From Armatimonadota bacterium (lineage in GTDB: Bacteria; Armatimonadota; Chthonomonadetes; Chthonomonadales; CAJBBX01), in assembly GCA_026392115.1 (NCBI GenBank), contig JAPLCQ010000082.1, positions 1 through 36,515 on the forward strand: 36,515 nucleotides of DNA, given 5' to 3'. The position numbers and the translations under genes are program-made. The notes under the pieces were generated by a model that saw only the letters and a program-made list of their open reading frames with translations, had not been told where the DNA came from and ran no database searches. The first letter of the stretch is position 1, and each line of letters begins with the position of its first letter. Positions 8,824 through 32,316 of this stretch are shown here, in pieces.

Positions 8824-8835
8824 GAGGGCCCGCCC

Positions 8836-11206: not shown

Positions 11207-11222
11207 GGAGTCCTCCCAGGCC

Positions 11223-11236: not shown

Positions 11237-11267
11237 AGGCGTAATCGTTATGGCCCAGAGTCGGCCT

Positions 11268-11297
11268 TTGGCGTACACGGGCCCGGCTGGGTAAACT
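11268..11297 (+). promoter_or_regulatory. candidate sigma70-type promoter for the sugar transferase
   Basis: TTGGCG (11268-11273) and TAAACT (11292-11297) are separated by 18 bases; each matches 4 of 6 consensus positions. They lie about 110 bases before the TTG start at 11410, with no better pair in the spacer. Confidence 0.35.
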
Positions 11298-11409
11298 GTT
11301 CGGGCATTCGGCGCGGTCGTCCGCGGCCAAGTAGCGCGGGGACCTGCAAACTCGAACGGCCGACCGGCCACCCAGGGCCGGAGCACCGCGCACCCATTAG
11401 GATTACGGT

Positions 11410-12090
11410 TTGGCGCAGAAGAGAGCCGTCGACATCTTCGGGGCAGTGGTGGGCCTGCTGCTGCTCTGGCCGGTGGCCCTGGTGGTCGCCGCGCTCATCA
11501 AGGTGGGTTCGCCGGGACCGGTGCTCTACCGCGGGCGCCGGGTGGGCCGGCACGGCAAGCCGTTCTACCAGCTCAAGTTCCGCACCATGCGCGTGGGAGC
11601 CGATGCCGGCAGCACCGGCCTGAGCCCGGACAACGACCCCCGCATCACCCGCATCGGGGCCTTCCTGCGCAAGTTCAAGGTCGACGAGCTGCCGCAGCTC
11701 TGGAACGTGCTCGTCGGCGAGATGAGCCTCGTGGGTCCGCGGCCCGACGTGCAGCGCTTCGTCGACATGTTCCCGGACGAGCAGCGCGTGATCCTGCAGG
11801 TGCGCCCGGGCATCACCGACTGGGCCTCCCTCTGGAACAGCGACGAGGGCGCCGTGCTGGCCACCTTCGACGACCCGGACGCCGCCTACCTGGAGCTGAT
11901 CCACCCCAAGAAGCTCCACCTCCAGATGGAGTACGTCCGCACCATGAGCGCCTGGTCGGACCTCAAGATCATCTTCTTGACCATCGCCCGCGTCTTCCGC
12001 AGGGATCGGGTTGAGCCCGACCTGGCCGCCATGATGGCGAAGATGGAGGACTCCGCGCCGCCCGCGTCGAAGTCCCAGACGACCGGCTGA
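11410..12090 (+). CDS. polyprenyl-phosphate sugar-1-phosphate transferase (monotopic PGT)
   Basis: A 226-residue bacterial sugar transferase of the PglC/WcaJ C-terminal type. It moves a sugar-1-phosphate from a nucleotide sugar to undecaprenyl phosphate at the inner membrane, the first step of exopolysaccharide, O-antigen or glycoprotein glycan assembly. TTG 11410 follows an AGGATT by 6 bases. Visible features are KRAVDIF, one hydrophobic re-entrant helix (about 8-32), [18 protein letters not shown], the catalytic Asp92-Glu93 dyad in [12 protein letters not shown], and SLVGPRP. It is the short form without the N-terminal four-helix and CoA-binding-like domains of WbaP. No glycosyltransferase, flippase or polymerase gene is adjacent, so it is an orphan here. 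The URO-D-like gene starts 39 bases downstream. Confidence 0.92.
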
Positions 12091-12129
12091 CCATCGCCCG
12101 CCAGGGCCGCCGCCGGGAAGGAGGCCCGC

Positions 12130-13302: not shown

Positions 13303-13309
13303 GTTCGCG

Positions 13310-14551: not shown

Positions 14552-14565
14552 TAGGAGCGCCACCC

Positions 14566-16161: not shown

Positions 16162-16177
16162 GGGCGACCGGGAACCG

Positions 16178-16535
16178 CTACGAGGAGCCAGGCTGGGGCG
16201 GCGGCTCGGCCACTCCGCCTGCCAGGCGGACGGCCTCCTCCATGACGAGACGACTGACGTAGATACCGTGGCTCCGCATTCGACTACTCGCCTCGGTCCA
16301 GCGACGATGCCAGTAAGAGGCCCGGCGCCACAGGGTGAGGCCACTTGGCCAGCCAGGTGGCCGCCTCAAACGCCTCAGTACCGAAGCCATACAGGCCGCC
16401 TGCGATGACCTCGTCCTGAACCTCCCGGGGTACGAGGACACGGCCATACAGCGCCCGAAGCATACCAAGGTGGCCCGCGGCTATCAGGGCCAACAAGGGC
16501 CCCGTGTTGATGACAAGGTTCCGTCCGTCAGGCAT
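16178..16535 (-). pseudogene. PIN/DUF3368 toxin-like gene, internally deleted and frameshifted
   Basis: The N-terminal third reads normally from ATG 16535 (MPDGRNLVINTGPLLALIAA, then GRVLVPREVQDEVIAGG and LLLASSLDRGE) and hits TAG at 16284-16286. DUF3368 PIN proteins are about 150-165 residues and continue after D-x-G-E with the AIALA helix and an acidic L-L-D-D metal site. That middle is missing. In the neighbouring frame directly past the stop the minus strand reads RMRSHGIYVSRLVMEEAVRL then AGGVAE, which matches the end of the family (a 'G-x-x-x-S-x-x-L-x-x-x-x-L-x-L-A-G-E' tail). About 60 residues therefore seem deleted with loss of frame. The start overlaps the UPF0175 stop by 8 bases. 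A nuclease function is very unlikely. Confidence 0.7.
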
Positions 16536-16782
16536 TGGCGACATCGGCGGCGAGGTCGCCGGGGTCCAGATCGATCATCGCCACTCCAAACCGGTGCAGG
16601 CCGAGCAGGAACTCGACCCGCCCCACCCCTGCCATCTGGGCGGCGGCGCCTGACGAGACGCGGCCCATCTCGAAGAGCTTCGCCGCCATTGCCATGCGGG
16701 CCTCGCGGGCGAACTCCTCCGGTGTCTGCCTGAGGACATCCGGCAGGGCCTCGGGATATGAGACGATCATCGTAGCGGGCAT
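16528..16782 (-). CDS. UPF0175 family antitoxin-like protein
   Basis: An 84-residue protein from ATG 16782, chosen because GGAG lies 6 bases upstream; an ATG at 16794 adds four residues and has no ribosome site. The sequence MPATMIVSYPEALPDVL, then FAREARMAMAAKLFEMGRVS, SGAAAQMAGVGRVEFLLGLH and RFGV is the UPF0175 pattern, with a helix-turn-helix-like 'S-S-G-x-A-A-x-x-A-G-x-x-R-x-E-F'. These proteins typically precede a DUF3368 PIN gene and are predicted antitoxins or DNA-binding autoregulators. The partner here is broken, so this is an orphan. A 7-bp stem hairpin sits 18 bases upstream of 16794. Confidence 0.82.
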   Translation of the reverse strand: MPATMIVSYPEALPDVLRQTPEEFAREARMAMAAKLFEMGRVSSGAAAQMAGVGRVEFLLGLHRFGVAMIDLDPGDLAADVANA

Positions 16783-16811
16783 TGTCTGCTCCATGGTCGG
16801 GCGCCGCCGGT

Positions 16812-16828
16812 CGGGTTGCGGCAACCCG
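16812..16828. promoter_or_regulatory. perfect hairpin/operator-like palindrome upstream of UPF0175 gene
   Basis: CGGGTTG-CGG-CAACCCG is a 7-bp perfect inverted repeat with a 3-base centre. It lies between the GH42-like stop and the UPF0175 start on minus. It could be an autoregulatory operator of the old toxin-antitoxin pair or the end of the upstream transcript; there is no T-tract. Confidence 0.35.
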
Positions 16829-16864
16829 TATTCCCAGCGTACCCCCAAGCAACCCCCGCCCGCC

Positions 16865-18820
16865 TCACCGGGCCTTCAGCAGGATCGCCTCGATGGAGTG
16901 CGGGGGAAGGGTCAGCTCCTGCTCCATGGGGTCCGGGCGCAGGCGGCTGCGGGCCCAGTCGGCCGGGCGGAAGCGGATGCGCTTGGTGATCGCCTTGTCC
17001 GTCGGGTTGAAGTAGAGGATGCGGTCGGGCAGGAGGGTGGACTGCACGCCGTCGGCCACGCCGTCGATGAGCGGGGCCGAGGCGGCGCCGGGCACGAGGT
17101 CCCCGGCGTGGTGCGCCAGCCGCTCCACCGCCTCCATGAGCCGTTCACGGTTGCTGGGAGCCACGGGCAGCGAGACAACCGCACCCTTGCCCATGCGCCG
17201 CGCGCAGGATGCCCGTACGGCCGCCCAGTCCCATCCCTGAGCCCCTGGAGAGGCCATCGCGGGCTCCGGGCCGACCAGCCGCCGCCACGCGCTACGGTCG
17301 CCTTCTACGGTCTCGACGCCGCCCAGGCTGCAGGTGAGCAGAATGCCTCCCGCCCGCACCCAGACCTCCAGCTTGGCCAGCGTCCGGGCCTCCACCACGC
17401 GGCCCGCCACGTAGACCAGCGCCCGGTAGCGCCGCAGCGCACCGTCGGCGATGAGCGACTCGTCCACGACGTCGAAGTCGTACCGGTCGCGCCCCTGCTC
17501 GCCCAACAGGAAGACGTCCAGCGGGAAGTTGCCCTCGCCCGCGTTGAGCCTGTGCTCCGTGGTCGGGTGGAAGAGCGCCAGGTCGACGCGCGGACGCCCG
17601 CCGGTCATGTGCTCTTTGTACGTGACCAGCTTGGCCCGTGCGCGGTCCAGGTTGTCGGGGTACTCGAAGTAGACCTGCACGCCGTTTGAGATATCGCAGA
17701 AGAAGCGCGCGACCTCGGCGTCCGGCGGCACATCGCCCGGCGGCTCGGTGTAGAAGGGGCACCCGTAGAAGTGACACGCCGTGGATACGCGCTTGACGCC
17801 GTAGTAGGAGACGTTGCCGGGCGTCTGCAGGGCCAGGCCCGCCCTGGCGGCCATCTTGGGGATGGCGGTGTAGTCGTTGCCGAAGCAGGTCACCTCGGAG
17901 GCGTAGCCCACAGAGGCGACGAGCGGGTTGGTGGGGTAGATGGACCGGAGCAGCGTCGCCATGCGGGGCGTGAAGCGGATCCAGACGCCGTAGTACCAGT
18001 CGACAAAGTCGAGCCAGCGGCGGCGGTCCTGCGCGGAGCCGCTCTTACGGGCCTGCGCGGCCCCCTGACTGCCCTCCAGCGCCGGGTAGGCCACTGCATC
18101 CCACGTGGCGAATGCCGTGCCCCAGCGAGCGTTCAGCGCGGCCAGGCCACGGAACTTGCGGCGCATCTCGGCGCGGAAGTCCTCGCGGGCGTAGGGGTCG
18201 CCGCACCAGTAGCCGGCGTGGGCGTGCTTCTGGGGCACGAGCCACGAGGTCATGGCGGCGGGGTAGCCGATCTCGCCGTAGTCCGACGGGGTGGACATGC
18301 GAATCCAGCCCACGCGCTCTCCCATGGCCTGGCGCTGGCGCTTGTAGAACTCCCGGTAGATATCCCAGACATTGGGCGCCCAGGGCGAGAGCTGGAGCAG
18401 CTTCCCGCCATGCTCGGCGCACTGGTAGGGGACGAACTCGGGCCGCTGCAGATACCACTTCGGCGGGAAGTGGACCCAGGAGAAGGGCACGTAGCCCAGG
18501 CCAGCGTCGTGCAGGGCGTCGGCGTTGCCGCGGTAGAGCGAGAAGTCCCAGTTGCCCGGCGCCTGCTCCACCATGCACCACGACTGGTAGTCGCAGTCGG
18601 CGAAGACGCCGATCCGCTTGAGTTGCGCGATGCGCTGCGGCGTCGCCAGATCGGACGCCGGCCCGGCAAAGGTGCCCCAGTAGGACATGAACGGGTAGAC
18701 GCTCATGTTGCCGGTGTACCAGGGGATGCGGGTCTTGCCGATGGGCGGCGCGTCCTGTTGTGCGCCGGCGCAAGCCGCCAGGAGCGCAACAGCCGCGACG
18801 ATGAGGCAGGTTCTGTTCAT
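16865..18820 (-). CDS. GH42-like beta-galactosidase-type lipoprotein
   Basis: A 651-residue protein. I chose ATG 18820, since it gives a lipoprotein leader, MNRTCLIVAAVALLAACAGA, with lipobox LAAC and Cys17; the frame continues 19 codons upstream. No clear ribosome site is visible. Residues about 40-400 look like a GH42/GH-A barrel: GVFADCDYQSWCMVEQAPGN, FSWVHFPPKWYLQRPE, then RMSTPSDYGEIGYPAAM with candidate acid/base Glu183, and CPFYTEPPGDVPPD with candidate nucleophile Glu359. Residues about 405-560 (RVDLALFHPTTEH, VDESLIADGALRRYRALVYV, WVRAGGILLTCSLGG) form the glutamine-amidotransferase-like trimerisation domain of beta-galactosidases. A small C-terminal beta domain ends LPPHSIEAILLKAR. 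The catalytic assignments are guesses from motif position, and substrate is open. It is probably membrane-anchored and extracytoplasmic. Confidence 0.72.
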   Translation of the reverse strand: MNRTCLIVAAVALLAACAGAQQDAPPIGKTRIPWYTGNMSVYPFMSYWGTFAGPASDLATPQRIAQLKRIGVFADCDYQSWCMVEQAPGNWDFSLYRGNADALHDAGLGYVPFSWVHFPPKWYLQRPEFVPYQCAEHGGKLLQLSPWAPNVWDIYREFYKRQRQAMGERVGWIRMSTPSDYGEIGYPAAMTSWLVPQKHAHAGYWCGDPYAREDFRAEMRRKFRGLAALNARWGTAFATWDAVAYPALEGSQGAAQARKSGSAQDRRRWLDFVDWYYGVWIRFTPRMATLLRSIYPTNPLVASVGYASEVTCFGNDYTAIPKMAARAGLALQTPGNVSYYGVKRVSTACHFYGCPFYTEPPGDVPPDAEVARFFCDISNGVQVYFEYPDNLDRARAKLVTYKEHMTGGRPRVDLALFHPTTEHRLNAGEGNFPLDVFLLGEQGRDRYDFDVVDESLIADGALRRYRALVYVAGRVVEARTLAKLEVWVRAGGILLTCSLGGVETVEGDRSAWRRLVGPEPAMASPGAQGWDWAAVRASCARRMGKGAVVSLPVAPSNRERLMEAVERLAHHAGDLVPGAASAPLIDGVADGVQSTLLPDRILYFNPTDKAITKRIRFRPADWARSRLRPDPMEQELTLPPHSIEAILLKAR

Positions 18821-19078
18821 ACCGCGTAGGTTCGGCGGATGCGACGGCGTTCCCTGCCCGCAGGCGCCGAGCCCCATGCACCCGGAAAGCGATGCTCACG
18901 GCTCGGGCGGCAAGAAACCACAAACGCACCAGCGACGGAGGCGCGTTGCGGAGCACCTTCCGAGTCCTGTTACCAGTCTGCCTATCATGGCGTCACCTTG
19001 CTGCAGTAGTCGCTGACGCTCGCAGACGCCGCACCTCGCCAAGCCTGACCTTGTGATCGCCCGATGACCCACCTGCCG

Positions 19079-19100
19079 CGACCGCCCCAGGTGGCGGTCG
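19079..19100. promoter_or_regulatory. 8-bp perfect inverted repeat in a 475-base gene-free spacer
   Basis: CGACCGCC (19079-19086) pairs with GGCGGTCG (19093-19100) around a 6-base loop. An overlapping second pair, CCACCTG (19069-19075) with CAGGTGG (19088-19094), could form an alternative fold. The spacer 18821-19295 between the GH42-like and kinase starts shows no other gene or RNA that I can support. It could be an operator or leader hairpin for the kinase pair. Confidence 0.35.
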
Positions 19101-19154
19101 ACAGGCTCCGAGCATAGGGTGGCAGCATGTGAGTGTGCGGTTGGGGATCGTCCA

Positions 19155-19163
19155 TGGTACTAT
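19155..19163 (+). promoter_or_regulatory. candidate extended -10 promoter for the kinase pair
   Basis: TGG-TACTAT matches the extended -10 pattern (TGn plus a TATAAT-like hexamer), about 130 bases before the first kinase start. There is no good -35 at the expected distance, which extended -10 promoters tolerate. Confidence 0.3.
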
Positions 19164-19295
19164 CAGATTGCGCGTGCTGGTCATGCCACGCAGTGCGCTA
19201 CAGCATCCATATGCCTGCTTCCGCCGAGTGCCCAGCCGTGCCAGTATGGCGGTAGTGCCGCCCAGAATCAGATCTCGGGAGAGGTGGCAACAGGT

Positions 19296-21101
19296 ATGAC
19301 GGTTCCGCAGCGCCTGCGTCTGCTCGTGCCGGCGCTCCTTCGGCATGTGAGCATGGCTGCAGCGGCGGTTGTGGCTGCGAGCCTGATGCGCGGCGTGCTC
19401 CTGTCTGCGCTCGGCCCTCGCATCGCGTGGGTAACCTTCTATCCTGCGGTTACGCTCGCCGCACTATATGGCGGTCTTGTCACCGGCATGCTGGCGGCCC
19501 TGGGCTCCTGTCTCGCCGTTGTATACGCTTGGCCGCTGCTCTGTGCGGTTCCGTTCGTCAAGGATTCGGCCGACTGGCTTGGTCTATTCGCATTCGTGTT
19601 TAACTGCCTCCTGATCAGTGGCGTTGCCGAAGCCTCTCGGCGTGCGCGACTGCAAGCTGAGCACGCCCGGACCGCTGCCGAGCACGCGAACAAGGCCAAG
19701 AGCGTGTTCTTGGCGACGATGAGCCACGAGCTTCGCACCCCACTCAACGCAATCCTGGGCTTCTCAAGCCTGATGCGAGACGACACGACGATGCTTGGTG
19801 AGCACCGCGAGATGCTCAGCACCATCAACCGTAGCGGCGAGCATCTGCTGAAGCTAATCGACGATGTTCTGGACATGGCCCGGGTGGAGTCAGGCAAGGT
19901 GACCATCAGCCACTCGCCGTTCTGCCTCACCGGAATGCTGGGGGACCTCGTGCACCTGATGTCTGTGCGAGCCGAAGCAAAGGGTCTCACCCTCCGCATG
20001 CAGACGGCGTCTGATGTGCCGGAATGGGTGTCATCGGACGAGGCCAGGATCAGACAGGTTCTTACCAACCTGCTGGGCAACGCCATTAGGTACACGGATC
20101 AGGGCGGTATCGACTTGCGTGTGCGGATGGACGCTCAGAGCGGTGCTGCTCCGTTGCCGATGTTGGTGATTGAGGTGGCCGATACCGGCCCGGGGATCGC
20201 AGCCGGCGACACTGAGCGGGTGTTTCAGGCGTTCGTGCAGGTGGGTACGACAGCAGGGCAGCAGGGCACGGGACTGGGCCTGGCTATCACGCGTCAGCTT
20301 GTGAATGCGCTGGGAGGGGGCATTGAGCTTGAGAGCATTGTTGGCCGGGGCGCCCTCTTCCGTGTGAGATTGCCCGTTGCGCCAGCGGAGCCGGACGTGG
20401 AGGGCGTGTCCGACTCCACGGAAGGTGGCACGCTACGGCTGGCGCCGGGCACGCCGGAGGTGCGTGTGCTGATCGCTGACGATAACGTTGATAACCGCCT
20501 GCTGCTGAAGCGGATAGTAGAGCGAGCCGGCTTCACTGCTCAGGTGGCGCACAACGGTGTCGAGGCTGTGAAGCTGTTCGAGGCATGGCGTCCGGCGTTC
20601 ATCTGGATGGACTGCCGGATGCCGATCATGGATGGTCTTGAGGCTGCGCGCCGCATACGCAGCAGTGCCGGGGGCGATGAGCCGAAGATCGTGGCTCTGA
20701 CGGCATCCGTGTTTAAGGAGGAGCACCAGAATGTCCTGGCGGCCGGAATGGATGACCTGGTGCGCAAGCCCGCAAAGCCTGAAGCGATCTTGGCCTGCAT
20801 GTGCCGTTTGCTAGGGCTTTCGTATGTGAGCGTGTTGTCCGCTACAGCACCAAGGCAACAGCCGACCGGTCCGCTCGACGCGGTGTCGCTACTCCGGCTG
20901 CCAGCCTCGGTACGCGCAGACTTGGCGGCGGCGTTGGTAACGCTGGATCGTCAGACCGTGGCGGCGGCGGTTGCCTCGGCGTGCGTAGCTGATGCCACGT
21001 TGGGGCAGATACTACGATCTTACACTGATCGTCTGCGCTATTCCGAGGTACGTCAGGCGCTTCAGGTTGCGGAGTCCGCAACCGAGATGAGGGAGCATTG
21101 A
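19296..21101 (+). CDS. membrane hybrid histidine kinase with DUF4118 sensor and receiver domain
   Basis: A 601-residue kinase from ATG 19296; the frame runs 59 codons further up but those residues are low-quality. Order: DUF4118 membrane segment (about 15-118, KdpD-like, with AWVTFYPAVTLAALYGGLVT); HisKA with phospho-acceptor His144 in TMSHELRTPLNAILG; HATPase_c with N-box NLLGNAIRY, VADTGPG and QGTGLGLA; receiver with IADDN, phospho-acceptor Asp439 (WMDCRMPIMDG) and Lys491. A C-terminal tail of about 95 residues resembles the end of similar hybrids but has no clear Hpt histidine. It autophosphorylates and passes phosphate within a relay at the inner membrane. Its stop overlaps the next kinase's start (TTGA), so the two are translationally coupled. 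Codon use is less GC3-biased than in the sugar genes. Confidence 0.9.
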   Translation: MTVPQRLRLLVPALLRHVSMAAAAVVAASLMRGVLLSALGPRIAWVTFYPAVTLAALYGGLVTGMLAALGSCLAVVYAWPLLCAVPFVKDSADWLGLFAFVFNCLLISGVAEASRRARLQAEHARTAAEHANKAKSVFLATMSHELRTPLNAILGFSSLMRDDTTMLGEHREMLSTINRSGEHLLKLIDDVLDMARVESGKVTISHSPFCLTGMLGDLVHLMSVRAEAKGLTLRMQTASDVPEWVSSDEARIRQVLTNLLGNAIRYTDQGGIDLRVRMDAQSGAAPLPMLVIEVADTGPGIAAGDTERVFQAFVQVGTTAGQQGTGLGLAITRQLVNALGGGIELESIVGRGALFRVRLPVAPAEPDVEGVSDSTEGGTLRLAPGTPEVRVLIADDNVDNRLLLKRIVERAGFTAQVAHNGVEAVKLFEAWRPAFIWMDCRMPIMDGLEAARRIRSSAGGDEPKIVALTASVFKEEHQNVLAAGMDDLVRKPAKPEAILACMCRLLGLSYVSVLSATAPRQQPTGPLDAVSLLRLPASVRADLAAALVTLDRQTVAAAVASACVADATLGQILRSYTDRLRYSEVRQALQVAESATEMREH

Positions 21102-24100
21102 GCGATCACGCAACAATCCTGCTCGTAGACGATGTGCCGGAATCCCTTTCGGCCCTTGCTGAGATACTCGGCGCCGCAGGCTTCGTCGTCCTACCTGCGG
21201 ACAGCGGGGAACTAGCGCTGGCCTCGGTGGCTGCCCGGCCTCCGGACTTGGTGCTTCTCGACATCCGGATGCCTGGAATGGATGGATTCGAAGTATGCCG
21301 TCGGCTGAAGTCAGATGCCGCAACGGCTGAGATTCCGGTGATCTTCCTTTCTGCCGGAACCGACCTATCAGACCGCGTCGGTGCCTTCGAGGTGGGCGCG
21401 GTCGATTACGTCTCCAAACCCGTCCAGCCGATCGAGTGCCTAGCCAGAGTGCGAACGCACATTGCGCTCAGTCAGACCACGAAGCTCCTTCGGCAACGCG
21501 CCCTTGAGCTTGAGCGTGCACAGGCAGAGACTTCCGCCAGCGAGGAGCGGTATCGAACGACTCTGGTAGGCATCGGCGATGCGGTAATAAGCACCGATGC
21601 GGACGGCCGGATCGACCTCATTAACCCCGTGGCAGAAGCGATGACGGGCTGGTCGGTGGATGAGGCGCGCGGGCGACCGCTGCAGGATGTGTTCCGCGTT
21701 GTGAACGAGGTGACACGCGTCCCGGTGGTGGATCCAGTGACCATCGTGCTCCGTGAGAACGCCGTTGTGGGCCTGGCGAACCATTCGGTGCTGATAGCAC
21801 GGGATGGTACTGAAAGGCCGATCGCTGACAGCGGTGCGCCGACACATGGAAGTGATGGGCAGATCACCGGTGTGGTGCTGGTCTTTCGCGATCAGAGCGT
21901 CGAACGGACTGCAAGCGAGGCCCTATACCGATCAAATGCGCATCTCCATCGTGCACAGAGCATCGGGAGCGTTGGGAGCTGGACATGGCATACCGAGGCC
22001 GATCGGCTAGAGTGGTCGGACCAGATGTACCGGCTGTTCGGCATTGACCGTGAGGGGTTTGATGGCAACCTTGCCACGGTGATCGCCCAGGCCATACATC
22101 CAGACGACAGGGCCATCGTGGAGGAGGCCAACCGATCCGTCGTCGATGCGGCGGTACCCCGTGCATGCGAGTACAGGATCGTACTGCCAGATGGTACGGT
22201 GCGCACGGTGTGGGCGGAGGCCGAAGCACTGGAACTCGATGCGGCGGGGAAGCCGGTCCGCCTGACAGGTATCGTTCAGGACATCACCGCTCGCAAGCTC
22301 GCGGACGCCGCACTGGCAGCACGCTCGCAACAACAATCGGCTCTCGCCGATATCAGCCGTGCGGCGCTTCTCTGCGCGGATATCCAGGGCGTTCTAGACA
22401 TGGCCGTCACGCGCGTAGCCTCAGTGCTTGGCGTCGAGATGGCGAAAGTGCTGGAGATGCAGGCCGACGGAGCGGCGCTGCTTCTGCGTGCTGGTGTGGG
22501 ATGGCACGACGGTCTAGTTGGTTCGGTAGCCATCGGCGTGGGCGAAGAATCGCAGGCAGCATTTACGCTGGCCGGCTGTGAGCCCGTTGTGGTCACCGAT
22601 CTCGCCACCGAAACACGTTTCCGTGGTCCTGATCTCCTTCTGGACCACCATGTAGTCAGCGGCGTGAGCGTCGTGGTGGGCAGCGACGACACCCCGTACG
22701 GAGTGCTGGGCGCCCACACTACGCAGCGACGTGCTTTCACATCCGATGATGTCGGGTTCGTGCAGACCGTCGCCAACATTCTTGGGGAAGCTTTCTCCTC
22801 CGCCAGAGCGCGAGCCGCTCTCGCCCAGACAGCAATCGAGTGGCAGCAGACCTTCGATGCGACCAGTAGCGCGATCTGGATCCTGGACCAGGACCAGCGC
22901 ATCATCCGGAGTAACCGAGCGGCTGAAGCCTATTTCGGCCAGCCATGCGAACGGATGCTGGGCCTGCACTGCTGGGAGATCGCTCACGGTACGACGGCAC
23001 CGGTCTGTGAGTGCCCGGCGCTCCGGGCATTCCGGACGATGCAGCGCGAGTCAATAGAGATGCCGATCGGTGACAGGTGGGTCGATGTGACGGTGGATCC
23101 CTTCCAGAATGCCGATGGGCTTTGTGCGGGTGCGGTGCACACTGTTCGCGACATCACGGAGCGCAAGGAAGCCGACGCGGAACGCGAGCGACTGCTCGGC
23201 CAACTCGCCCAGGCGCAACGCACCGAGGCCGTAGGTCGGCTGGCCGGGGGGGTAGCGCACGACTTCAACAATATGCTCATGGCGGTGCTCAACTACACTG
23301 AGCTAGCCCGAGATTGTGTGGAGCCAGACCATCCGGTAATGGAGTGCTTGGACGAGATCGAGAGTGTCTCGCAACGGTCCGCCAACCTCACGCGACAGCT
23401 TCTGGCGTTTGCACGCCGGCAGACCATCGCGCCCACGGTGCTAGACTTGAACACGGAGATCGGCAGCATGCTCAAGATGCTTCGTCGGCTCATCGGCGAG
23501 CATATTGACCTGGTCTGGAAGCCTGCTCAGGACCTTTGGCCAGTGAAGGCTGACCCGTCACAGATCGACCAGGTGCTGGCCAACCTTAGCGTCAACGCCC
23601 GCGACGCCATGCCCGGAACGGGCACGCTGACCGTAGAGACCGCCAACATCACGGCTGATGCAGCTTGCAGCCTGCTGACCAGTGACGCCCTCCCGGGCGA
23701 CTATGTCATGGTGTCGGTGAACGATACCGGGCATGGCATAGATGCTGACACCATGCAGCACATTTTTGAACCTTTCTATACTACCAAAGCGTTCGGCGAA
23801 GGCACGGGTTTAGGGCTGGCAACTGTGTTCGGGATCATCCAGCAGAATGCCGGATTTGTGAATGTGACCAGCGAGCCCGGCCGGGGCACTGCATTTAGGA
23901 TCTACCTGCCGAAGTCGGCCGCAATACCACCAGCCGTGGCTCCGGCGCCGGGCGCAACTCAACAGCCGGGTAGCGGTGAGACGATTCTGCTTGTCGAGGA
24001 TGAGCGAGCTATCAGGGTCTCGACCGAACGACTGCTCGAGCGGCTCGGGTACCGCGTCCTCGCCGCCGGCGCGCCAGCGGAAGCCCTCCTACTTGCACAG

Positions 24101-24352
24101 GAGTGGCACCAGACAATCGACCTGCTCCTCACCGATGTCGTAATGCCGGAGATGAGCGGACGCGAGCTCGCGACGCGCCTGCTGGAGTTGCGACCGGGCC
24201 TCAGATGCCTATACATGTCCGGCTACACGGCCAGTGTGATCGCCCAACACGGCGTGCTCGACGAGGGCGTGCGGTTCCTATCCAAGCCATTCACGCGCGA
24301 CGCCTTGGCCCGAGGCGTGCGGGCAGCGCTTGACGACACGCCGCCCGTGTAG
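21098..24352 (+). CDS. soluble multi-PAS/GAF hybrid histidine kinase, receiver at both ends
   Basis: A 1084-residue cytoplasmic sensor; no membrane segment is seen. TTG 21098 overlaps the previous stop by 4 bases and has GGGAG just upstream. Order: REC1 (5-122, Asp55 in LLDIRMPGMDG, Lys107); PAS1 (about 150-270); PAS2 with PAC (about 285-398, WSDQMYRLFGI); GAF (about 415-570); PAS3 (about 580-690, including a cysteine-rich HCWEIAHGTTAPVCECP); HisKA with His721 in GGVAHDFNNMLMAVLNYTEL; HATPase_c with NARDAMP, NDTGHGID and GEGTGLGLATV; REC2 (963-1075, Asp1013 in LTDVVMPEMSG, Lys1063). The N-terminal receiver suggests it accepts phosphate from the DUF4118 kinase just upstream, which would make a two-step relay. 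No DNA-binding output is present, so a regulator is missing from the window. Confidence 0.92.
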   Translation: MSDHATILLVDDVPESLSALAEILGAAGFVVLPADSGELALASVAARPPDLVLLDIRMPGMDGFEVCRRLKSDAATAEIPVIFLSAGTDLSDRVGAFEVGAVDYVSKPVQPIECLARVRTHIALSQTTKLLRQRALELERAQAETSASEERYRTTLVGIGDAVISTDADGRIDLINPVAEAMTGWSVDEARGRPLQDVFRVVNEVTRVPVVDPVTIVLRENAVVGLANHSVLIARDGTERPIADSGAPTHGSDGQITGVVLVFRDQSVERTASEALYRSNAHLHRAQSIGSVGSWTWHTEADRLEWSDQMYRLFGIDREGFDGNLATVIAQAIHPDDRAIVEEANRSVVDAAVPRACEYRIVLPDGTVRTVWAEAEALELDAAGKPVRLTGIVQDITARKLADAALAARSQQQSALADISRAALLCADIQGVLDMAVTRVASVLGVEMAKVLEMQADGAALLLRAGVGWHDGLVGSVAIGVGEESQAAFTLAGCEPVVVTDLATETRFRGPDLLLDHHVVSGVSVVVGSDDTPYGVLGAHTTQRRAFTSDDVGFVQTVANILGEAFSSARARAALAQTAIEWQQTFDATSSAIWILDQDQRIIRSNRAAEAYFGQPCERMLGLHCWEIAHGTTAPVCECPALRAFRTMQRESIEMPIGDRWVDVTVDPFQNADGLCAGAVHTVRDITERKEADAERERLLGQLAQAQRTEAVGRLAGGVAHDFNNMLMAVLNYTELARDCVEPDHPVMECLDEIESVSQRSANLTRQLLAFARRQTIAPTVLDLNTEIGSMLKMLRRLIGEHIDLVWKPAQDLWPVKADPSQIDQVLANLSVNARDAMPGTGTLTVETANITADAACSLLTSDALPGDYVMVSVNDTGHGIDADTMQHIFEPFYTTKAFGEGTGLGLATVFGIIQQNAGFVNVTSEPGRGTAFRIYLPKSAAIPPAVAPAPGATQQPGSGETILLVEDERAIRVSTERLLERLGYRVLAAGAPAEALLLAQEWHQTIDLLLTDVVMPEMSGRELATRLLELRPGLRCLYMSGYTASVIAQHGVLDEGVRFLSKPFTRDALARGVRAALDDTPPV

Positions 24353-24353
24353 C

Positions 24354-24384
24354 GCGCCTCCGACCAATCAGAGTGGTCAGGCGC
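24354..24384. terminator. hairpin at the convergent ends of two kinase genes
   Basis: GCGCCT-cc-GACCA, a 7-base loop, then TGGTC-AGGCGC: stems of 5 and 6 bp interrupted by a 2-base bulge. It lies directly after the plus-strand kinase stop and overlaps the minus-strand kinase stop, the right place for a bidirectional terminator. Confidence 0.5.
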
Positions 24385-27300
24385 CGGTAGTCTGTTTGCC
24401 GAGCCACTTCTGGATCACTGCATACAGGTCATCTGACTTAACAGGCTTGCTGACATAGTCGTCCATACCGGCCTCGAGGCATGCCTCACGGTCGCCCTGC
24501 ATGGCCGCCGCGGTCATGGCGACAATCGGTATCGTATGGTCCAATCCCTGTGACTTAGGGTCGCGAATTCTGCGAGCGGCCTCGAACCCATCCATCTCAG
24601 GCATCTGGCAATCCATGAGAACGAGGCCGTACGGTACGGCGCGAAGGGCTGACAATGCCTCGAACCCGTTGGCCACGGCATCCGCTTGGAAGCCAAGCTT
24701 TCGCAGCACCATCAGTGCCACCAACTGATTTGTCGGGTTGTCCTCGGCGACCAGTATCCGGGCGACGGGGCCGGCATCGATCGCCCTTGTTCGGCCGACG
24801 ACGGGGCCTGCGCTCTTCTCGTGCGACTCCCGCTGGTCAAGGACATCAAGAAGGCACGTTTTGAGTACAGACTGCCGCACGGGTTTCGTCATGCATCGGG
24901 CCACGCCATAGGCGGCAAGGCGAACTGCAGCGCCACCGTCGGCCATAGACGTCAGCATCACGAGTAGCGTGGCCCGGATTGCAGCGCTCTGCGATATGGC
25001 TGCTGCCAACTGCTCTCCGTCCATGCCCGGCATGTGCATGTCGAGTAGCGCCATTCGGAAGGGCCTTCCTGCTGCGGCAGCCTCATGCAATATCTGCAGC
25101 GCACCTTCGCCGTCCTTGGCCGAGGCCTGCTCGCATCCCCAGGTTCGGAGCAGCGTGGTCACGAGTAGCAGGTTCACATCGTTATCGTCAACCACGAGCA
25201 CGCGCACACCTTCAAGGGCCATCGACGACATTGCGGCATGGTCCTTCCGAGAGGCATCCTTGCCCAGAACGGCGGTGAACCAGAAGGTAGAGCCTCTGTT
25301 CGGCTCACTCTCGACCCCGATCGAGCCACCCATCAGTTCCGCGAGCTGCTTGCTGATGGCGAGGCCCAATCCGGTGCCGCCGTACTTGCGCGTCGTGGAG
25401 CCGTCGGCTTGGGTGAATGCAGCAAAAAGTATCGGTAGCTTATTGGGCGCAACACCGATGCCTGTGTCGGTCACGGAGAAGCGAACCGTGATAGACCGTT
25501 CATCCTCGGACGCCACCGATGCATGCAACGTAACGCTACCTGTATCGGTGAACTTCACAGCATTGGCACAGAGATTGACGGCGATCTGGCGAAGCCTGCC
25601 CGCATCGCCGCGGACCCACTCCGGCACATTAGCGTCCACCATGCAAACAATGTCTAGGCCCTTCTGCTGCGCCTTGACTGCCAGGATCTCTACCGCGTCC
25701 TCAAGGGTGGTACGCAGGTCGAAGCTCAGCACCTCGAGCTCAAGCTTGCCCGCCTCGATCTTCGAGAAGTCGAGGATATCGTTGATGAGTGCCAGCAGCG
25801 TGTCGCCGCTGGAGCGAACGATCTGGGTGTACTGCCGCTGATCCGGAGTGAGCTCGGTATCGAGTAGCAGGCCCGTCATGCCGATGATGCCATTCATGGG
25901 GGTCCGAATCTCGTGGCTCATGTTGGCAAGGAACTCGCTCTTCGCGCGACTAGCTTGGCTCGCCTGTTCGGCCAGAGCTTTGGCCTCCTCAGAAGCCCGT
26001 GCGAGGCGAGAGTTGGCCTCGATGAGCTGCCTCTCAGCACGGAGACGCTCGGTGATGTCGCTTAGGATGCCAACGGCGTGCCAGCCGCCGTCCAAGTAGA
26101 TCGCCGACAGTGATAGACGGATATCGATCTCAAGGCCGTCCTTGCGGATGGCCGCCAGATCCAGCGTTCGACCGACTGCGGCGCCTTCACCGGTCTTGAG
26201 GAACTCTGGGTAGGCGGCCTCGTGTGCCGGTCGAAAGCGCTCCGGCGTCAACAACGCATGGAGGGAACGGCCAAGAGCCTCGCCGGCTGTGTATCCGAGT
26301 ACACGCTCCGCAGCGGGATTCCAGTAGCTGATGCAGCCCTGAGGGTCCATCATCAGGATGGCTTCCTGGGCCGATCCCGTGATCGCCCGTGTTCGGCTCT
26401 CACTTTCGCGCAGTTCGGCGATCAGGGCATCCAGGCGGGATTCGGCTTGGCCGGTCACAGACCAGAGCAGCAGTAGCACGCCGCCGAGGACCACCAGCGC
26501 CGTGGCGAGGCTCATGGCAAGCGAGGCGCGTGCCGCATGCGCCTGCACAGTCATGTCTCGCAGCACGATCAGGTCGGCGACCACGCGGTCGGCTCCGTCG
26601 TGGACCCCGATAGCGCCGCATGCCACCTGGCGACCGCTCGAATCCGTCTGCAGGCTGGGCACGAGCGTGTCCCGTGAATGGTGCCCGGAGAACCAGCGAG
26701 ACAGACCGGGCGGCAGGGCAACGGCAGAGGGACTGATCACCGCGAAGTCTGGGAACTCGCTCCAGCGCTGGTCGGCCCGCAGTGCGCGCCGGACTGACTC
26801 GACAGCCTCCCGCGGCAGGTTTCGTTTCCTGAGCGCGATCAGCAGGTCCGCCTGCAAGTCCCTGGCCAGGTGGTTCAGTGTCTGGTCCAGCTGCAGGCCT
26901 ACCTCGATGCTTCCCAATCGCGTATCGGCATCGAAGCACGGGCGCACATACCTGAACGTGATCGCGCCGAACGTACCGGGCTCAACGCCCCAAGCATCCT
27001 CGCCGGTTCGCTGCGCAGTGAGAAGCGTCGATCGATCGATCCGGTCACCACGTCGCGCCGGATCGTGGGCTCGGAAAATGGCAACGCGGTCTGGATCGAT
27101 CAACGTAAGATGCGTCACACCGTACTCGGCCTTGAGACGCCGCCACAGACCGTTGGCCCGCCCGGACAGCGCCGGCAGGTCGCGGCGTCTCCATGCCGTC
27201 AGTAGCCCCGCATCTTGCGCCAGGCGATCGGCATGCGCCCTTAGGAGTAGTGCCCGGCTAGCGATGCCCCGAGTCCAGACATCCTGGGCGTGCTGCCTGA

Positions 27301-28105
27301 ACTGGACAGCGTCTGCTCGCGAGGCTTCAGTGAATTGACCATACCGATCCACTCCGTACACGGCTAGTGCCGCCAGCATAGCAGCCAGAGTGGGCGCCAC
27401 CACCCACCCCCGGAGCCGTGGAGCAGCAGACTTGTGGCGCAGGCCGCGCAGGCCGACGGCCACCCCCGCGAGCGCCAGAAGAACAAGAAGCGCCCCCACG
27501 GCCAGCAACGGCCGTAGGCGCTCGGCGGCCAGACGCGAGCCCCAGTCCGCAGCCAGGACGTCGATACCCACCACTGCGGCGGCAGATCCTCTCGCCGCAT
27601 CCACAACTGGCGCGAACACGGAGACAAAGGTTCCATACTCATCCGTGTACGGTCCAGCGGTGCGCGGCCGCAGATCCTCGAACACAGCCGTGAGCTCAGC
27701 CGGTGGCTTCTTGTACTCGTCGCCCGGCGCACTGGCCAGCGGGTCCGTGCGCTGATACGTTTCCGGTCCGAAGTGGAAGTGACCACCGCGAGCGCGCACC
27801 ATGTAGATGCCTTGCTGACTGCCCTCTTCGGCCGCGGCCGTCAGTTGCTCACGAAGCCGTTCGTCGGCCGTCGTCCCCAGATCGGCGATGGTGAACGTAA
27901 GGCGGCTCACGAGCCGCTGATTCACAGTGTTGGCGGTACCGACGGCCCGTTGGACCAGGCTCTCCCGCATGCTGTGGTCCAGTGCCATGGCCCGAACCCC
28001 ACCCACCCACCAAGCAAGCGCGCACAGCAGGGACGCCAGCACGATGCAGCCCGCAAGCCGGGTCGCTGGTCCGAGCCGGGCGTGACCGTCGCCAATGGAT
28101 GCCAT
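24377..28105 (-). CDS. hybrid histidine kinase with two extracytoplasmic sensor domains and two receivers
   Basis: A 1242-residue protein from ATG 28105, with GGGAG 8 bases upstream. Order: TM1 (about 17-35); a first periplasmic sensor (about 40-195); TM2 (197-220); TM3 (235-252); a second large sensor (about 255-525, resembling the double-Cache type: [59 protein letters not shown]); TM4 (528-550); PAS (565-690); HisKA His731 ([15 protein letters not shown]); HATPase_c ([26 protein letters not shown]); REC1 Asp1022 with Lys1074; REC2 Asp1165 ([18 protein letters not shown]) with Lys1220. This is a BarA/TorS-like layout without an Hpt domain. It diverges from the gas-vesicle operon across about 170 bases. 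Confidence 0.92.
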
Positions 28106-28276
28106 AGGTGCTTCTCCCGAGAGTAGTCAATCTGAACCTGAAGAGGAGACAGGGGCAGGGCGGAATACGAGCGGCGCAGCCGGAATCTGTCACGGGGATC
28201 GCCGACGCTACCGAGCAGCATAACAGTGTAGCCACCTTGCGCCCGCTACGGACACGGCCACGCCGAAGCAGCGCGA

Positions 28277-28870
28277 GTGCGGCCCGAGCGCCGCCACCTG
28301 CAGGCGCATCAGTTGGTCCTTCGCAGGCTCATGGAGATCGGGTCGGTGGTGCCTGCGGCGTTCGGCACCATCGCCCCCTCCGTGGGCGCTCTGGAGAAGG
28401 CCCTCACCCTGGGCCAGAAGTCGCTTCACGAGCAGGTGGTTCGCCTCGACGGCCGCGCCGAGATGTCCCTGCGCATCGCCTGGGACGTGCCCGATATCTT
28501 CGCCTACTTCGTGCAGACGCACGCCGAGCTCAAGGCCCTGCGCGACAGCGTCTTCGGCGACGGCGAGCCATCGCGGGAGGCCATGATCGAGGTGGGCCGG
28601 GCATTCCAGGCCGTCCTCGACCAGGAGCGGACCGCCTGCCAGCAGCGCGTCGAGGGCATCATGAAGCGCTACGGCTTCGGCGTAATCCTCTCGCCCGTCC
28701 GTACCGAGCCCGAGATCGCCAACGTGGACTGCCTGGTGCGCCTCGACCAGGTGGACACGTTCGAGGAGGCCACCATGGAGGCGGCCAAGGGCTACGACGA
28801 CAACGTCAGCTTCCGCATCAGCGGCCCCTGGGCCCCGAGCCACTTCGTCAATGTGGAGCTGCACTTCTGA
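28277..28870 (+). CDS. gvpF: GvpF/GvpL family gas vesicle protein, N-terminally truncated
   Basis: A 197-residue product from GTG 28277. GvpF/L proteins are about 230-280 residues and begin with a Y-L-Y-G-[IV] strand roughly 55-65 residues before the H-E/H-Q motif. Here the family match starts at once with QAHQLVLRRLMEIGSVVPAA followed by FGTIAPS, and continues well: LDGRAEMSLRIAWDVPDIFA, the helix REAMIEVGRAFQAVLDQERT, then SFRISGPWAPSHFVNVELHF, the usual C-terminal end. The frame is closed by TAG at 28229-28231 and no Y-L-Y-G strand appears in any frame back to the kinase start. GTG 28277 has no ribosome site. F/L proteins bind GvpA subunits during assembly. This one lacks most of its N-terminal ferredoxin-like half, so function is doubtful. 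Whether it is F or L cannot be told. Confidence 0.8.
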   Translation: MRPERRHLQAHQLVLRRLMEIGSVVPAAFGTIAPSVGALEKALTLGQKSLHEQVVRLDGRAEMSLRIAWDVPDIFAYFVQTHAELKALRDSVFGDGEPSREAMIEVGRAFQAVLDQERTACQQRVEGIMKRYGFGVILSPVRTEPEIANVDCLVRLDQVDTFEEATMEAAKGYDDNVSFRISGPWAPSHFVNVELHF

Positions 28871-28891
28871 GCGGCAAGTGAGGGCGGACCG

Positions 28892-29230
28892 ATGCTTCTA
28901 GTGGACGATATCCTGCTGGCTCCGCTCTCGGCCCTGCTCTGGGTCTTCAAGGAGATTCGTGCGGCAGGCGAGGAGGAGCTGGCGTCGGAGCCCGACCGGA
29001 TCATGGCCGCCCTCCGCACCCTCCACATGCAACTTGAGGCCGGCCTCATTGAGGAGGCCGAGTTCGACGTCCGCGAAGGCGAGTTGCTGGACCGATTGGA
29101 CGCCGTCAACGATGCCCTCGGCAAGGGCGAGGATGACGATGAGGAAAACGAGGACGACGACGGCGACGAGGATGAGGAGCAGCCGAACGACGACGGCGAG
29201 CCCGACCCCGGCGGCGTAAAACCAGCCTAG
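28892..29230 (+). CDS. gvpG: GvpG gas vesicle protein with long acidic tail
   Basis: A 112-residue GvpG. The N-terminal MLLVDDILLAPLSALLWVFK followed by EIRAAGEEEL and LHMQLEAGLIEEAEFDVREG then ELLDRLD is the classic G pattern: a short hydrophobic helix, then an amphipathic 'E-x-G-x-I-x-E-x-E-F' coiled-coil helix. GvpG is a small assembly factor found beside GvpF/L in nearly all clusters. ATG 28892 is preceded by AGGGCGG at a short spacing. Residues 79-105 form an almost purely acidic tail (runs such as EDDDEENEDDDGDEDEE) absent from typical 80-90-residue GvpG proteins. The third codon positions here are strongly GC-rich, like the sugar genes and unlike the kinases. Confidence 0.9.
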   Translation: MLLVDDILLAPLSALLWVFKEIRAAGEEELASEPDRIMAALRTLHMQLEAGLIEEAEFDVREGELLDRLDAVNDALGKGEDDDEENEDDDGDEDEEQPNDDGEPDPGGVKPA

Positions 29231-29272
29231 ACGAGCCGCGCCGCAGGACGGACGCAGAGAACTGGAGATGCC

Positions 29273-31279
29273 ATGGGCGCTAGCCCGCAGATAGGCTTAC
29301 CGGGACAGCAGGCCGCTGTGCCATCGTTCCTCACCGATCCTCGCCTGCGGTTGTGGCTTTTCGGCGGCAAGGGTGGTGTAGGCAAGACGACGTGCGCCGT
29401 GGCAACCGCCCTGACCATGGCCGCCCGCGAGCCCAACGAGCGGTTCCTCCTCATGTCCGTCGATCCGGCCCACTCGGTGCTGGACAGCCTCGCCGGCAGC
29501 GCCCCGCCACCCAACCTCTCCGTCGTCGAGTTCACCGGCGAACGAACCCTCGACGTGCTTCGCAGGCGCTACGGCGCCGCCATCGAGCGCATCCTGACGC
29601 TGGGCACCTTCATGGACGGCGAAGACGCGCACCGCATCGTCGGCGTCACCGTGCCCGCGCCGGAGGAACTCGCGGCCGTCGTGCATATCGCGCACTGGGT
29701 GGAGACCCGCAAGTACCGCGGCATCGTGGTGGACCTGGCGCCCACGGGCCATGCGTTGCGCCTGCTGGATGCGCCGAAGCTCCTGGTGCAATGGGCCGAC
29801 GCGCTGGACAAGCTGCTGGAGAAGCACCGCGAGATGCGGAGCGCCTTTGGTGCGGCCGCGAGGCCGGACCTCCTGGATGCCCTCATCGCCCGCGGCAAGG
29901 CCATGGGCACCCTGGCGCGCTCCACCTTCACCGCCAAGGCCGGCTGCCGCTTCGCCGCCGTTGCCAACGCCGACGCTCTCACCATGGCCGAGACCCTGCG
30001 GTTGGTGGCCGAGCTTCGCCGGCGGCGCATCCCTGTGACCGACATCGTCATCAACCGCATGCACGGCTCCGAGTGCGCCGTCTGCCTGGAGCAGCGGCAG
30101 AGCGAGGAGGCCGTGCTCCGCGCCAATGCCGAGCAGCTGTCGGCGCAAAGCCTCTGGGAGCTGCCGATCCTGGCCGGCGAGGCCCGCGGCAGGCCGATCC
30201 TGGACGGACTCTGGGAGCAGGTCAAGCCGCTGGCGCCAGCCGCCCCGCCCGAGGCCGACGCGACGGCCCCCGCGGCCTTCGTGCGGACCGTGGTGGAGAA
30301 CCCCGCCCCGGAGCCGGGTCGGCAGCGCTTCATCTTCCTCGCGGGCAAGGGCGGCGTCGGCAAGACCACCATGGCCTGCGCCACGGCCCTCGACCTGGCG
30401 GCTGACGAGCCCCCGCGGAGCGTGCTGCTCCTCTCCACCGACCCGGCGCACTCGCTGGCCGATGCCCTGGGCATGGCCGTGGGCGACGCCGCGGGACCGG
30501 TGTCCGATCGTCTCTCCGCCATGCAGCTCTCCCCAGCCGACGAACTGGCCGCCTTGCGGCGCGACGTGCGGCGCGGACTCAAGCCGCTCCGGTCGGCCTC
30601 CTCGTCGTTCTCCATCGCGTTCGAGTCCGAGGCCTGGGACAAGCTCCTGGACCTCTGCCCGCCGGGGATCGATGAGATTATGGCCATCACCCGCATCACG
30701 GCCACCGCCGAGGCGGGGCGGTTCGACACCATCGTGGTGGATACCGCTCCCACGGGTCATCTCCTGCACCTCCTCCGCATGCCCGCCGTCATGCAGGAGT
30801 GGCTGCAGGCCGCACTGAGCATCCTGCTCAAGTACGACGCCGCCACCCGCGCACCCGACCTCGCCGACCGGCTCATACGCCTCTCCCGCGACCTCAAGGG
30901 CCTCCGCGCCGCCCTGGACGATCCGGCCGAGGCCGCCATCTACGCCGTGGCCATTCCCACGCGCATGGCTTTGGCGGAGACGATCGACCTTGTCCAGGAG
31001 ACCCGGTCACTGGGAATCGACGTGCCGCTCCTGCTGGTGAACCACTGCACACCGGCCACCGAATGCCCCCGATGCGGGGCGCGCCGGATCGGCGAGCAGG
31101 AGGTCCTTGCGGAGATCGACGGTCGCTTCGGCCGGACGCATGTGGCCCGCATCCCGCAGATGCCGGGGCTCCGCGGCGCCGGCCCGTTGCTGGAGTTGGG
31201 ACGGGCGCTCTACGGCGGCCCGGCAGCCGGCGCGCAAGCTGAACCCTCAGGCAATGGAGAAGGCAAATGTCCGCAATAG
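29273..31279 (+). CDS. two-domain ArsA/Get3-like ATPase in the gas-vesicle operon
   Basis: A 668-residue tandem ATPase with GGAG 5 bases before ATG 29273. Each half has a deviant Walker A of the ArsA/MinD class (GGKGGVGKTT 31-40; GKGGVGKTT 358-366), a switch I (SVDPAHS with Asp54; STDPAHS with Asp390) and a switch II (DLAPTGH 154-160; DTAPTGH 490-496). Each half also has one CxxC (CAVC 268-271; CPRC 598-601), at the place where Get3/TRC40 dimers coordinate zinc. ArsA itself lacks this motif. A linker (about 320-350, Pro/Ala-rich) joins the halves. No arsenite-site cysteines or arsB are seen. By family, it could be a targeting factor or holdase for hydrophobic proteins, and the hydrophobic Gvp shell proteins next door are obvious clients. 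That is inference. Its stop overlaps the next gene by 13 bases. Confidence 0.88.
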   Translation: MGASPQIGLPGQQAAVPSFLTDPRLRLWLFGGKGGVGKTTCAVATALTMAAREPNERFLLMSVDPAHSVLDSLAGSAPPPNLSVVEFTGERTLDVLRRRYGAAIERILTLGTFMDGEDAHRIVGVTVPAPEELAAVVHIAHWVETRKYRGIVVDLAPTGHALRLLDAPKLLVQWADALDKLLEKHREMRSAFGAAARPDLLDALIARGKAMGTLARSTFTAKAGCRFAAVANADALTMAETLRLVAELRRRRIPVTDIVINRMHGSECAVCLEQRQSEEAVLRANAEQLSAQSLWELPILAGEARGRPILDGLWEQVKPLAPAAPPEADATAPAAFVRTVVENPAPEPGRQRFIFLAGKGGVGKTTMACATALDLAADEPPRSVLLLSTDPAHSLADALGMAVGDAAGPVSDRLSAMQLSPADELAALRRDVRRGLKPLRSASSSFSIAFESEAWDKLLDLCPPGIDEIMAITRITATAEAGRFDTIVVDTAPTGHLLHLLRMPAVMQEWLQAALSILLKYDAATRAPDLADRLIRLSRDLKGLRAALDDPAEAAIYAVAIPTRMALAETIDLVQETRSLGIDVPLLLVNHCTPATECPRCGARRIGEQEVLAEIDGRFGRTHVARIPQMPGLRGAGPLLELGRALYGGPAAGAQAEPSGNGEGKCPQ

Positions 31280-31941
31280 ACCCGGGAGCCGCGCTGGCCG
31301 CAGGCGCGGGGACGTCCCTGGCAGGAGGGCAACGGGTCTCCCTGTGCGAGGCCGTCGACACGCTCCTGAACACAGGCGTGGTGGTGGTGGGCGACGCCGC
31401 CATCTCGCTGGCCGACGTCGATCTGGTGTACGTCCAGCTCCAGCTGGTCATCGCCTCCGCCGGCAAGTTCATGAACTCGGCCAAGGAGGCTGGCGGCGGC
31501 TCCACGTGGAAGCCCGGTCTCCGGTCCGTCGGGGCGCCCGCCTCCGCGGTCGAAGCGCCGCCCGCGCCGCCGCCCATGTGGGAGGCGCCCGAGGCGCCGG
31601 CGGGTCATGAAGCGCCCGCCGAGCCCAGGCCCGCCACCGCGCCGTCGCAGCCGTTGCGTCCCGTCTCCTCCGCCGTCGCCGTTAAGGACGACAGCGAGGG
31701 CGGTAGGGCCACCAACGGCGTGGCGCAGCTCGTGCTCACGGTCATCAAGCTGCTCCAGGAGCTGGTCGAGCGCCAGGCCCTCCGCCGCATTGACGACGGC
31801 GACCTGACGGCGGATCAGATCGAGAAGCTGGGCACGGCCCTCATGCGCCAGGTCGAGGAGCTCGACCGGCTCAAATCCGCATACGGCCTCACGGACGACG
31901 ATCTGAACCTCGATCTCGGCCCGCTGGGTCACCTACTCTAG
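31267..31941 (+). CDS. GvpJ-GvpK fusion protein
   Basis: A 224-residue protein with GGAGAAGG directly upstream of ATG 31267. Residues 24-70 are a GvpA/J-type shell domain: VSLCEAVDTLLNTGVVVVGD, then AAISLADVDLVYVQLQLVIA. Residues about 75-148 are a Pro/Ala/Glu-rich linker. Residues about 150-224 are a full GvpK: NGVAQLVLTVIKLLQELVER, QALRRIDDGDLTADQIEKLG, ELDRLKSAYGLTDDDLNLDL, then GPLGHLL. GvpK is normally a separate protein of about 90-150 residues. No stop or frameshift scar is visible between the parts and the linker is not homologous to either. J proteins start the conical vesicle tips, and K is an accessory needed for tip formation, so the fusion may tether the two. Coupled to the ATPase upstream. 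Confidence 0.88.
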   Translation: MSAIDPGAALAAGAGTSLAGGQRVSLCEAVDTLLNTGVVVVGDAAISLADVDLVYVQLQLVIASAGKFMNSAKEAGGGSTWKPGLRSVGAPASAVEAPPAPPPMWEAPEAPAGHEAPAEPRPATAPSQPLRPVSSAVAVKDDSEGGRATNGVAQLVLTVIKLLQELVERQALRRIDDGDLTADQIEKLGTALMRQVEELDRLKSAYGLTDDDLNLDLGPLGHLL

Positions 31942-31959
31942 AAAGGCAGTAACAAGCCG

Positions 31960-32274
31960 ATGCAATCCCGACAGATCATGCAGGCGACCAACTCGGCCAC
32001 GCTGGCCGACATTCTGGAGCGCGTGCTGGACAAGGGCGTCGTCATCGCCGGCGACATCCGGGTGAACCTGGTCAACGTCGAACTGCTCTCCATCCAGATA
32101 CGGCTGGTCATCTGCTCGGTGGACAAAGCCCGCGAGATCGGGCTGGACTGGTGGACCGGCAACGCCGCATTCGCCAACCACGGCGCCGATGAGGCCATGG
32201 CAGGCACGCTGGAGCGCATCGACGAGCGCCTGGCGCGTCTGGAGCAGGCGGCGGCGGCGCCGGCTGGGGCGTAG
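31960..32274 (+). CDS. GvpA-family gas vesicle shell protein, J/S type
   Basis: A 104-residue protein from ATG 31960; the AAAGG upstream is rather distant, and ATG 31978 is a possible alternative. Residues about 12-63 are a GvpA-fold domain: SATLADILERVLDKGVVIAG, then DIRVNLVNVELLSIQIRLVI, then CSVDKAREIGLDWW. The 'GVVIAGDI-x-V-x-L-x-x-V-E-L-L' and 'SVDKA-x-E-x-G-x-DWW' forms are those of minor J/S-type shell proteins; the main GvpA usually has GVVIDAW in the first strand. The C-terminal part (75-104) is a short helix, MAGTLERIDERLARLEQ, with an Ala-rich end. It would sit at tips or act in nucleation. It is the last gene of the operon and converges on a minus-strand gene 42 bases later. Confidence 0.88.
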   Translation: MQSRQIMQATNSATLADILERVLDKGVVIAGDIRVNLVNVELLSIQIRLVICSVDKAREIGLDWWTGNAAFANHGADEAMAGTLERIDERLARLEQAAAAPAGA

Positions 32275-32316
32275 GCGGCGGCGCGCCGGGCCTGGCCGGC
32301 TCGCAAGCCATTGCCC

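Follow-up and report, generated by a model that had tools for sequence, protein, structure and literature searches.

What can a tandem ATPase of the ArsA/Get3 type be doing among gas vesicle (gvp) genes? The question is raised by a locus within the window, i.e. the whole stretch of 36,515 nucleotides analysed here, where five plus-strand open reading frames make up a compact gvp run from 28277 to 32274. The run opens with a gvpF/L fragment (28277-28870; 197 aa; PF06386, E 7.5e-37, matched from profile position 48) and gvpG (28892-29230; PF05120, E 1.5e-14), which are followed by the ATPase (29273-31279; 668 aa), by a gene in which a gvpS/M-type Gas_vesicle domain is fused to GvpK (31267-31941; 224 aa; PF00741 at 25-63 and PF05121 at 146-224, type assigned by alignment) and by a gene for a GvpJ-type protein (31960-32274; 104 aa; PF00741, with the signature GDI...ELL...DWW by alignment). 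Alignment separates three types of Gas_vesicle domain, namely A (shell, DAWVRVS...), J (the signature just given) and S (ADVDL...); the window holds a single domain each of types S and J, and this typing found no A-type domain in it. What the first-pass annotation had called a GvpJ-K gene is really the S/M-type domain joined to GvpK, the J-type protein having a gene of its own, and the first gene is an incomplete gvpF, which lacks 60 N-terminal residues that are found in a sister genome.

Concerning the ATPase itself, Pfam profiles match ArsA_ATPase (PF02374) twice (E 2.2e-96), once in an N-terminal half (29348-30211, P-loop at 29363-29392) and once in a C-terminal half (30326-31213, P-loop at 30341-30370), and both P-loops are intact, with the deviant Walker A KGGVGKT. 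Among the NCBI models, TIGR00345, which covers the TRC40/GET3/ArsA subfamily, scores 316 bits vs a cut-off of 135, so that the protein belongs to this superfamily by both domains and motif; its naming as the tandem ArsA/Get3-type ATPase of gas vesicle clusters also draws on a tree of the halves, a structural model and fold matches. Each half carries a CxxC pair at the Get3 zinc position, CAVC at residues 268-271 (30074-30085) and CPRC at residues 598-601 (31064-31075); the protein has ten cysteines in total, and at least two CxxC motifs arise by chance in 0.8% of shuffles. The ATG lies 42 bases after the end of gvpG at 29230 and immediately downstream of a GGAG motif, and the gene overlaps the gvpS-gvpK fusion gene, which starts at 31267, by 13 bases. 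The two full ArsA-class halves, the placement of the CxxC pairs and the tight spacing to both neighbours had all been noticed at first reading, and each of them holds.

It had also been suggested that the chain has the shape of a single-chain Get3 dimer, and the predicted fold, a two-lobed ArsA/Get3 pseudodimer, agrees with this. The AlphaFold2 model (pLDDT 84, pTM 0.85), built from an alignment in which 20 of the 25 homologues are arsenic-type ArsA, superposes 524 residues on the closed ArsA 9nbw at 2.8 A, ArsA itself being the best whole-chain structural match, and its C half reaches Z scores of up to 32.6 against Get3/TRC40 structures. By sequence, the best PDB match is Chlamydomonas ArsA1 (Cr-ArsA1; 5zme/5zmf, E 6e-45), an algal single-chain pseudodimer that carries tail-anchored proteins and has no CxxC (PMC11170914). 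Within the gvp-associated proteins, CxxC is present in both halves in the window, in the sister genome (G003), in Thiohalocapsa, in G032 and G040, and in every complete tandem protein from Myxococcota. Neither half of the cyanobacterial gvp tandem ATPases has the motif, nor do the Chlorobi single-domain ones, and six plasmid proteins annotated as arsA have none. Since the cyanobacterial and Chlorobi proteins lack the motif, a putative zinc clasp cannot, judging from these sequences, be general to the gvp ATPase family or essential to its gvp role throughout.

The linkage of the ATPase to gvp genes recurs. Within the window's phylum, Gas_vesicle matches over the cut-off occur in 9 of 291 genomes, and in a survey that scored four candidates per genome the tandem ATPase was found in 5 of these 9 vs 0 of the other 282 (Fisher 7.5e-9, kinship uncorrected). 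A search across genomes, which the first-pass annotation had proposed as a check, finds the linkage in several phyla: the tandem ATPase sits inside gvp clusters in Thiohalocapsa, in Myxococcota and in the window's phylum; in Nostoc its distance to gvp genes is 3.4 kb, and the gvp clusters of Chlorobiaceae contain a single-domain relative. One tandem ATPase, that of G049 (L156:10036-12067, minus strand), is split between frames in its N half, either by a real lesion or by an assembly error. The earlier caution that the co-location might not be unique was well placed, as Castillo & Saier 2010 (PMC2963123) had already described ArsA homologues with two domains from gvp operons in several phyla and had proposed that gas vesicle biogenesis draws its energy from them; the linkage has thus been known since 2010 and is not new. 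Many gvp clusters have no ArsA (those of G192, G204 and G229, and most in Myxococcota), and its function in gvp clusters therefore appears, from gene content, to be dispensable or replaceable.

On balance, and with slightly better than even confidence, we favour the reading that the protein represents a gvp-specific branch of ArsA/Get3, a single-chain pseudodimer acting as an ATP-gated chaperone for GvpA-, J- and S-type subunits, in a system that is here a decaying remnant. The two halves of the one chain would close on each other upon ATP binding, with both CxxC pairs lying at the domain interface where Get3 has its zinc site, and the ATPase would shield or hand over the very hydrophobic subunits together with GvpF and GvpG, whose genes belong to the same run. 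Chaperoning of hydrophobic shell subunits seems the best mechanism; the reading builds on linkage to gvp genes, phylogeny, conserved motifs, the predicted fold and purifying selection (dN/dS 0.09 between the sister genomes), all shown here, while zinc binding, client binding and the ATP cycle of the ATPase are what we infer. Cr-ArsA1, the best PDB sequence match, offers a precedent as a single-chain pseudodimer carrying tail-anchored proteins. The papers found contain no client, zinc or ATPase assay for the gvp ATPase clade. The current candidates for keeping GvpA-type proteins soluble and feeding the growing shell are GvpF/G and GvpN, and a recent interaction study proposed GvpF and GvpG as GvpA chaperones (PMC11445434). 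A Get3-like, zinc-clasped ATPase in the gvp cluster would point to a defined chaperone cycle for shell subunits, and could serve engineered gas vesicles.

A different reading, which we regard as rather doubtful, is that the ATPase, instead of holding monomers, provides the energy by which the shell grows or is remodelled, either replacing the AAA+ ATPases GvpN and CDC48 or working alongside them. Gene content speaks for it. In G032, G049 and eight Myxococcota loci (L020, L022, L178, L179, L183, L185, L186 and L190), the clusters with ArsA are ordered F-G-ArsA-F-S-F-K, J and A being present too where the contig extends far enough, and none of them shows GvpN or CDC48, L178, L179 and L186 lying near contig ends; the ArsA cluster of G040 is likewise without both, and genome-wide no GvpN over the cut-off was found in G032, G040 and G049 nor in the genomes of L020 and L022. 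In the window's phylum, the four gvp genomes without ArsA all have GvpN, and within Myxococcota CDC48 is present in 0 of 7 gvp clusters with ArsA vs 13 of 17 without it (Fisher 0.001, kinship uncorrected). Against this reading, Thiohalocapsa and G003 combine ArsA, GvpN and CDC48, and the L187, L191, L193 and L195 clusters have none of the three. To our knowledge, moreover, no ArsA/Get3 protein is known to act as a ring unfoldase. A strict rule by which each gvp cluster has either ArsA or GvpN fails, both on these four clusters and on the Myxococcaceae-like ones (L172-L177, L181, L182 and L184), which have CDC48 alone. The pattern, while not strict, suggests that the roles of ArsA, GvpN and CDC48 overlap. 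It is a possibility, to be held tentatively, that a tandem Get3-like ATPase with a zinc clasp, doubled apart from ArsA, is an alternative assembly ATPase that takes on what GvpN and CDC48 do elsewhere and is the sole recognised ATPase of many gvp clusters.

Some further features of these clusters should be mentioned. The CDC48-type protein, a double AAA ATPase (e.g. L136:5092-7314, minus strand), recurs in the gvp clusters of G003, Chlorobiaceae, Thiohalocapsa and Myxococcaceae-like genomes, and a literature search combining gas vesicles, GvpN and CDC48 turned up no publication on a CDC48-type gvp ATPase. A small cysteine-rich protein with CxxC repeats, resembling a DnaJ zinc finger and with no Pfam match, adjoins gvpA/gvpN (L136:2-292, minus strand; also in L159 and L161). 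The A-type proteins of GvpN-less clusters (L155:14394-14897, L156:6805-7518 and L157:1966-2616) bear long C-terminal extensions, vs the short classic GvpA, and in L191, L193 and L195, which the Myxococcota search found in 12-13 Mb genomes, the motif applied picks out no clear A-type shell domain.

Returning to the chaperone reading, the part of it that describes the system here as a remnant comes from comparison with the sister genome. Homology to the sister gvpF begins only at 28282/28283, at sister residue 61, as located by blastn, junction sequences and protein comparison, and GvpF is accordingly 257 aa in G003 vs 197 aa in the window. In G003, GvpN and a full-length GvpF adjoin the equivalent gvpG-ATPase-SK-J run, and a second contig (C156) carries a GvpA gene, a further GvpF/L and the CDC48-type AAA ATPase before it runs on into a block matching 8362-18858 of the window. 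This syntenic block lies upstream and flanks the locus in both genomes. From 18858 to 28283, three hybrid histidine kinase genes identified by Pfam (19119-21101 and 21098-24352 on the plus strand, 24377-28105 on the minus strand) stand instead of the sister's gvp genes and occupy the place of the front half of its cluster; their counterparts in the sister genomes G002 and G003 are, bar very short stretches, paralogues sharing at most about 76% identity. From the start of homology inside gvpF and the kinases filling the space, the front half of the cluster, including the shell gene, appears to have been lost or replaced in place. No direct or inverted repeats, as a transposon would leave, were found near the breakpoints, nor a sigma-70 promoter upstream of the truncated gvpF. 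The designation of the locus as a gas vesicle assembly operon is thus right as to the gvp run, and does not extend to the shell: beyond the S-type and J-type proteins, the 5.7 Mb assembly (98.6% complete) yielded no other Gas_vesicle match, and hence no GvpA-type gene, no GvpN over the cut-off and no other GvpF/L. This genome has probably lost the capacity to make gas vesicles. Having lost gvpA and gvpN along with the beginning of gvpF, the system would be a decaying remnant, and since the shell gene is missing, the function of the ATPase here is probably lost or being lost.

The truncation is seen in a single metagenome-style assembly of 181 contigs, where a misjoin is possible, and it might be an assembly chimera of a strain with a complete gvp cluster like that of G003. 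This we consider unlikely. Identity to G003 shows a step, with 98-100% over gvpF-gvpG (28283-29300) and about 91% over 29400-32285, and dS rises from 0.01-0.07 over gvpF-gvpG to 0.28-0.42 over the rest of the run; such a step suggests recombination or a chimeric join. The absence of any second gvpF, gvpN or gvpA match in a nearly complete assembly and the synteny block at 8362-18858, flanking the locus in both genomes, argue against a chimera. A step further down in plausibility is that the ATPase and its gvp neighbours were co-opted to a role other than buoyancy after the shell gene was lost, which seems to us quite improbable. The reading frames are still open despite the absent gvpA and gvpN, and in the sister comparison dN/dS is 0.03-0.18 across ArsA, JK and J. 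These low values mostly reflect the time before truncation, however, and with GvpF 100% identical to the sister protein at a dS of 0.07, very little time may have passed since the truncation; a new partner gene is not evident either.

The ATPase can also be told apart from the arsenic pump. In a tree of half-domains, whose bootstrap values are not fully settled, N halves and C halves of the gvp proteins group with the Chlorobi single-domain protein in one clade (support 97/90), apart from the arsenic ArsA clade (100/99). A topology in which all N halves are constrained to group, the one expected from a tandem duplication shared with ArsA, is 95 log-likelihood units worse and is rejected (p-AU 2.6e-8); together with the separate clades, this indicates that tandem proteins arose by separate duplications in the gvp and the arsenic lineages, and that single-chain Get3/ArsA dimers would have evolved more than once. 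A position firmly within ArsA together with arsenite genes, named at the outset as one of the results that would count against a holdase for shell subunits, was looked for and is not the case. That the protein is an arsenite-pump ArsA lying beside gvp genes by chance is hardly credible, for although its tandem architecture, its matches to PF02374 and, weakly, to arsenical-pump models and its best whole-chain fold match recall that pump, phylogeny, motifs and neighbourhood reject this identity: it scores 147 bits with the ArsA equivalog TIGR04291, far below the cut-off of 650, falls outside the ars clade, keeps CxxC, lacks equivalents of C113, C172 and C422 by alignment (as do the gvp ArsA clusters 4 and 6 of PMC2963123) and adjoins no ars gene.

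Comparison with known systems places the protein as follows. With the ars-operon ArsA (1f48, 9nbw) it shares tandem architecture and, by prediction, the closed pseudodimer fold, whereas that ArsA has its own clade and duplication, no CxxC, the arsenite cysteines and linkage to arsD/arsB/arsR. Cr-ArsA1 is likewise a single-chain tandem pseudodimer, but is plant/algal, has no CxxC and is not known to be gvp-linked. Yeast and archaeal Get3/TRC40 (2woj, 3zq6, 4xtr) have the same deviant Walker A, switch and PGIDE motifs, CxxC at the same position and, according to the model, the same fold; they are homodimers with tail-anchored clients, in contrast to the gvp ATPase, which is one chain with two unlike halves, sits among gvp genes and is known here from its sequence and predicted fold. 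No literature joining Get3 and gas vesicles was found. The window's ATPase fits the gvp-associated tandem ArsA of Castillo & Saier by its two domains, its gvp setting and its clade apart from ars ArsA. Their clusters 4 and 6 comprise proteins of about 640 aa with two ArsA domains, encoded among gvpF/L, G, J, K and M, in which the arsenite cysteines are not conserved and for which a gas vesicle role was proposed; the words Get3, zinc and CxxC have 0 occurrences in that text (PMC2963123). To that description the present analysis adds CxxC in both halves, the separate duplication, the single-domain sister and the many clusters without GvpN or CDC48, and what is new are the signs of a zinc-clasped, single-chain Get3-like dimer, of a doubling independent of the arsenic pump and of a truncated cluster.
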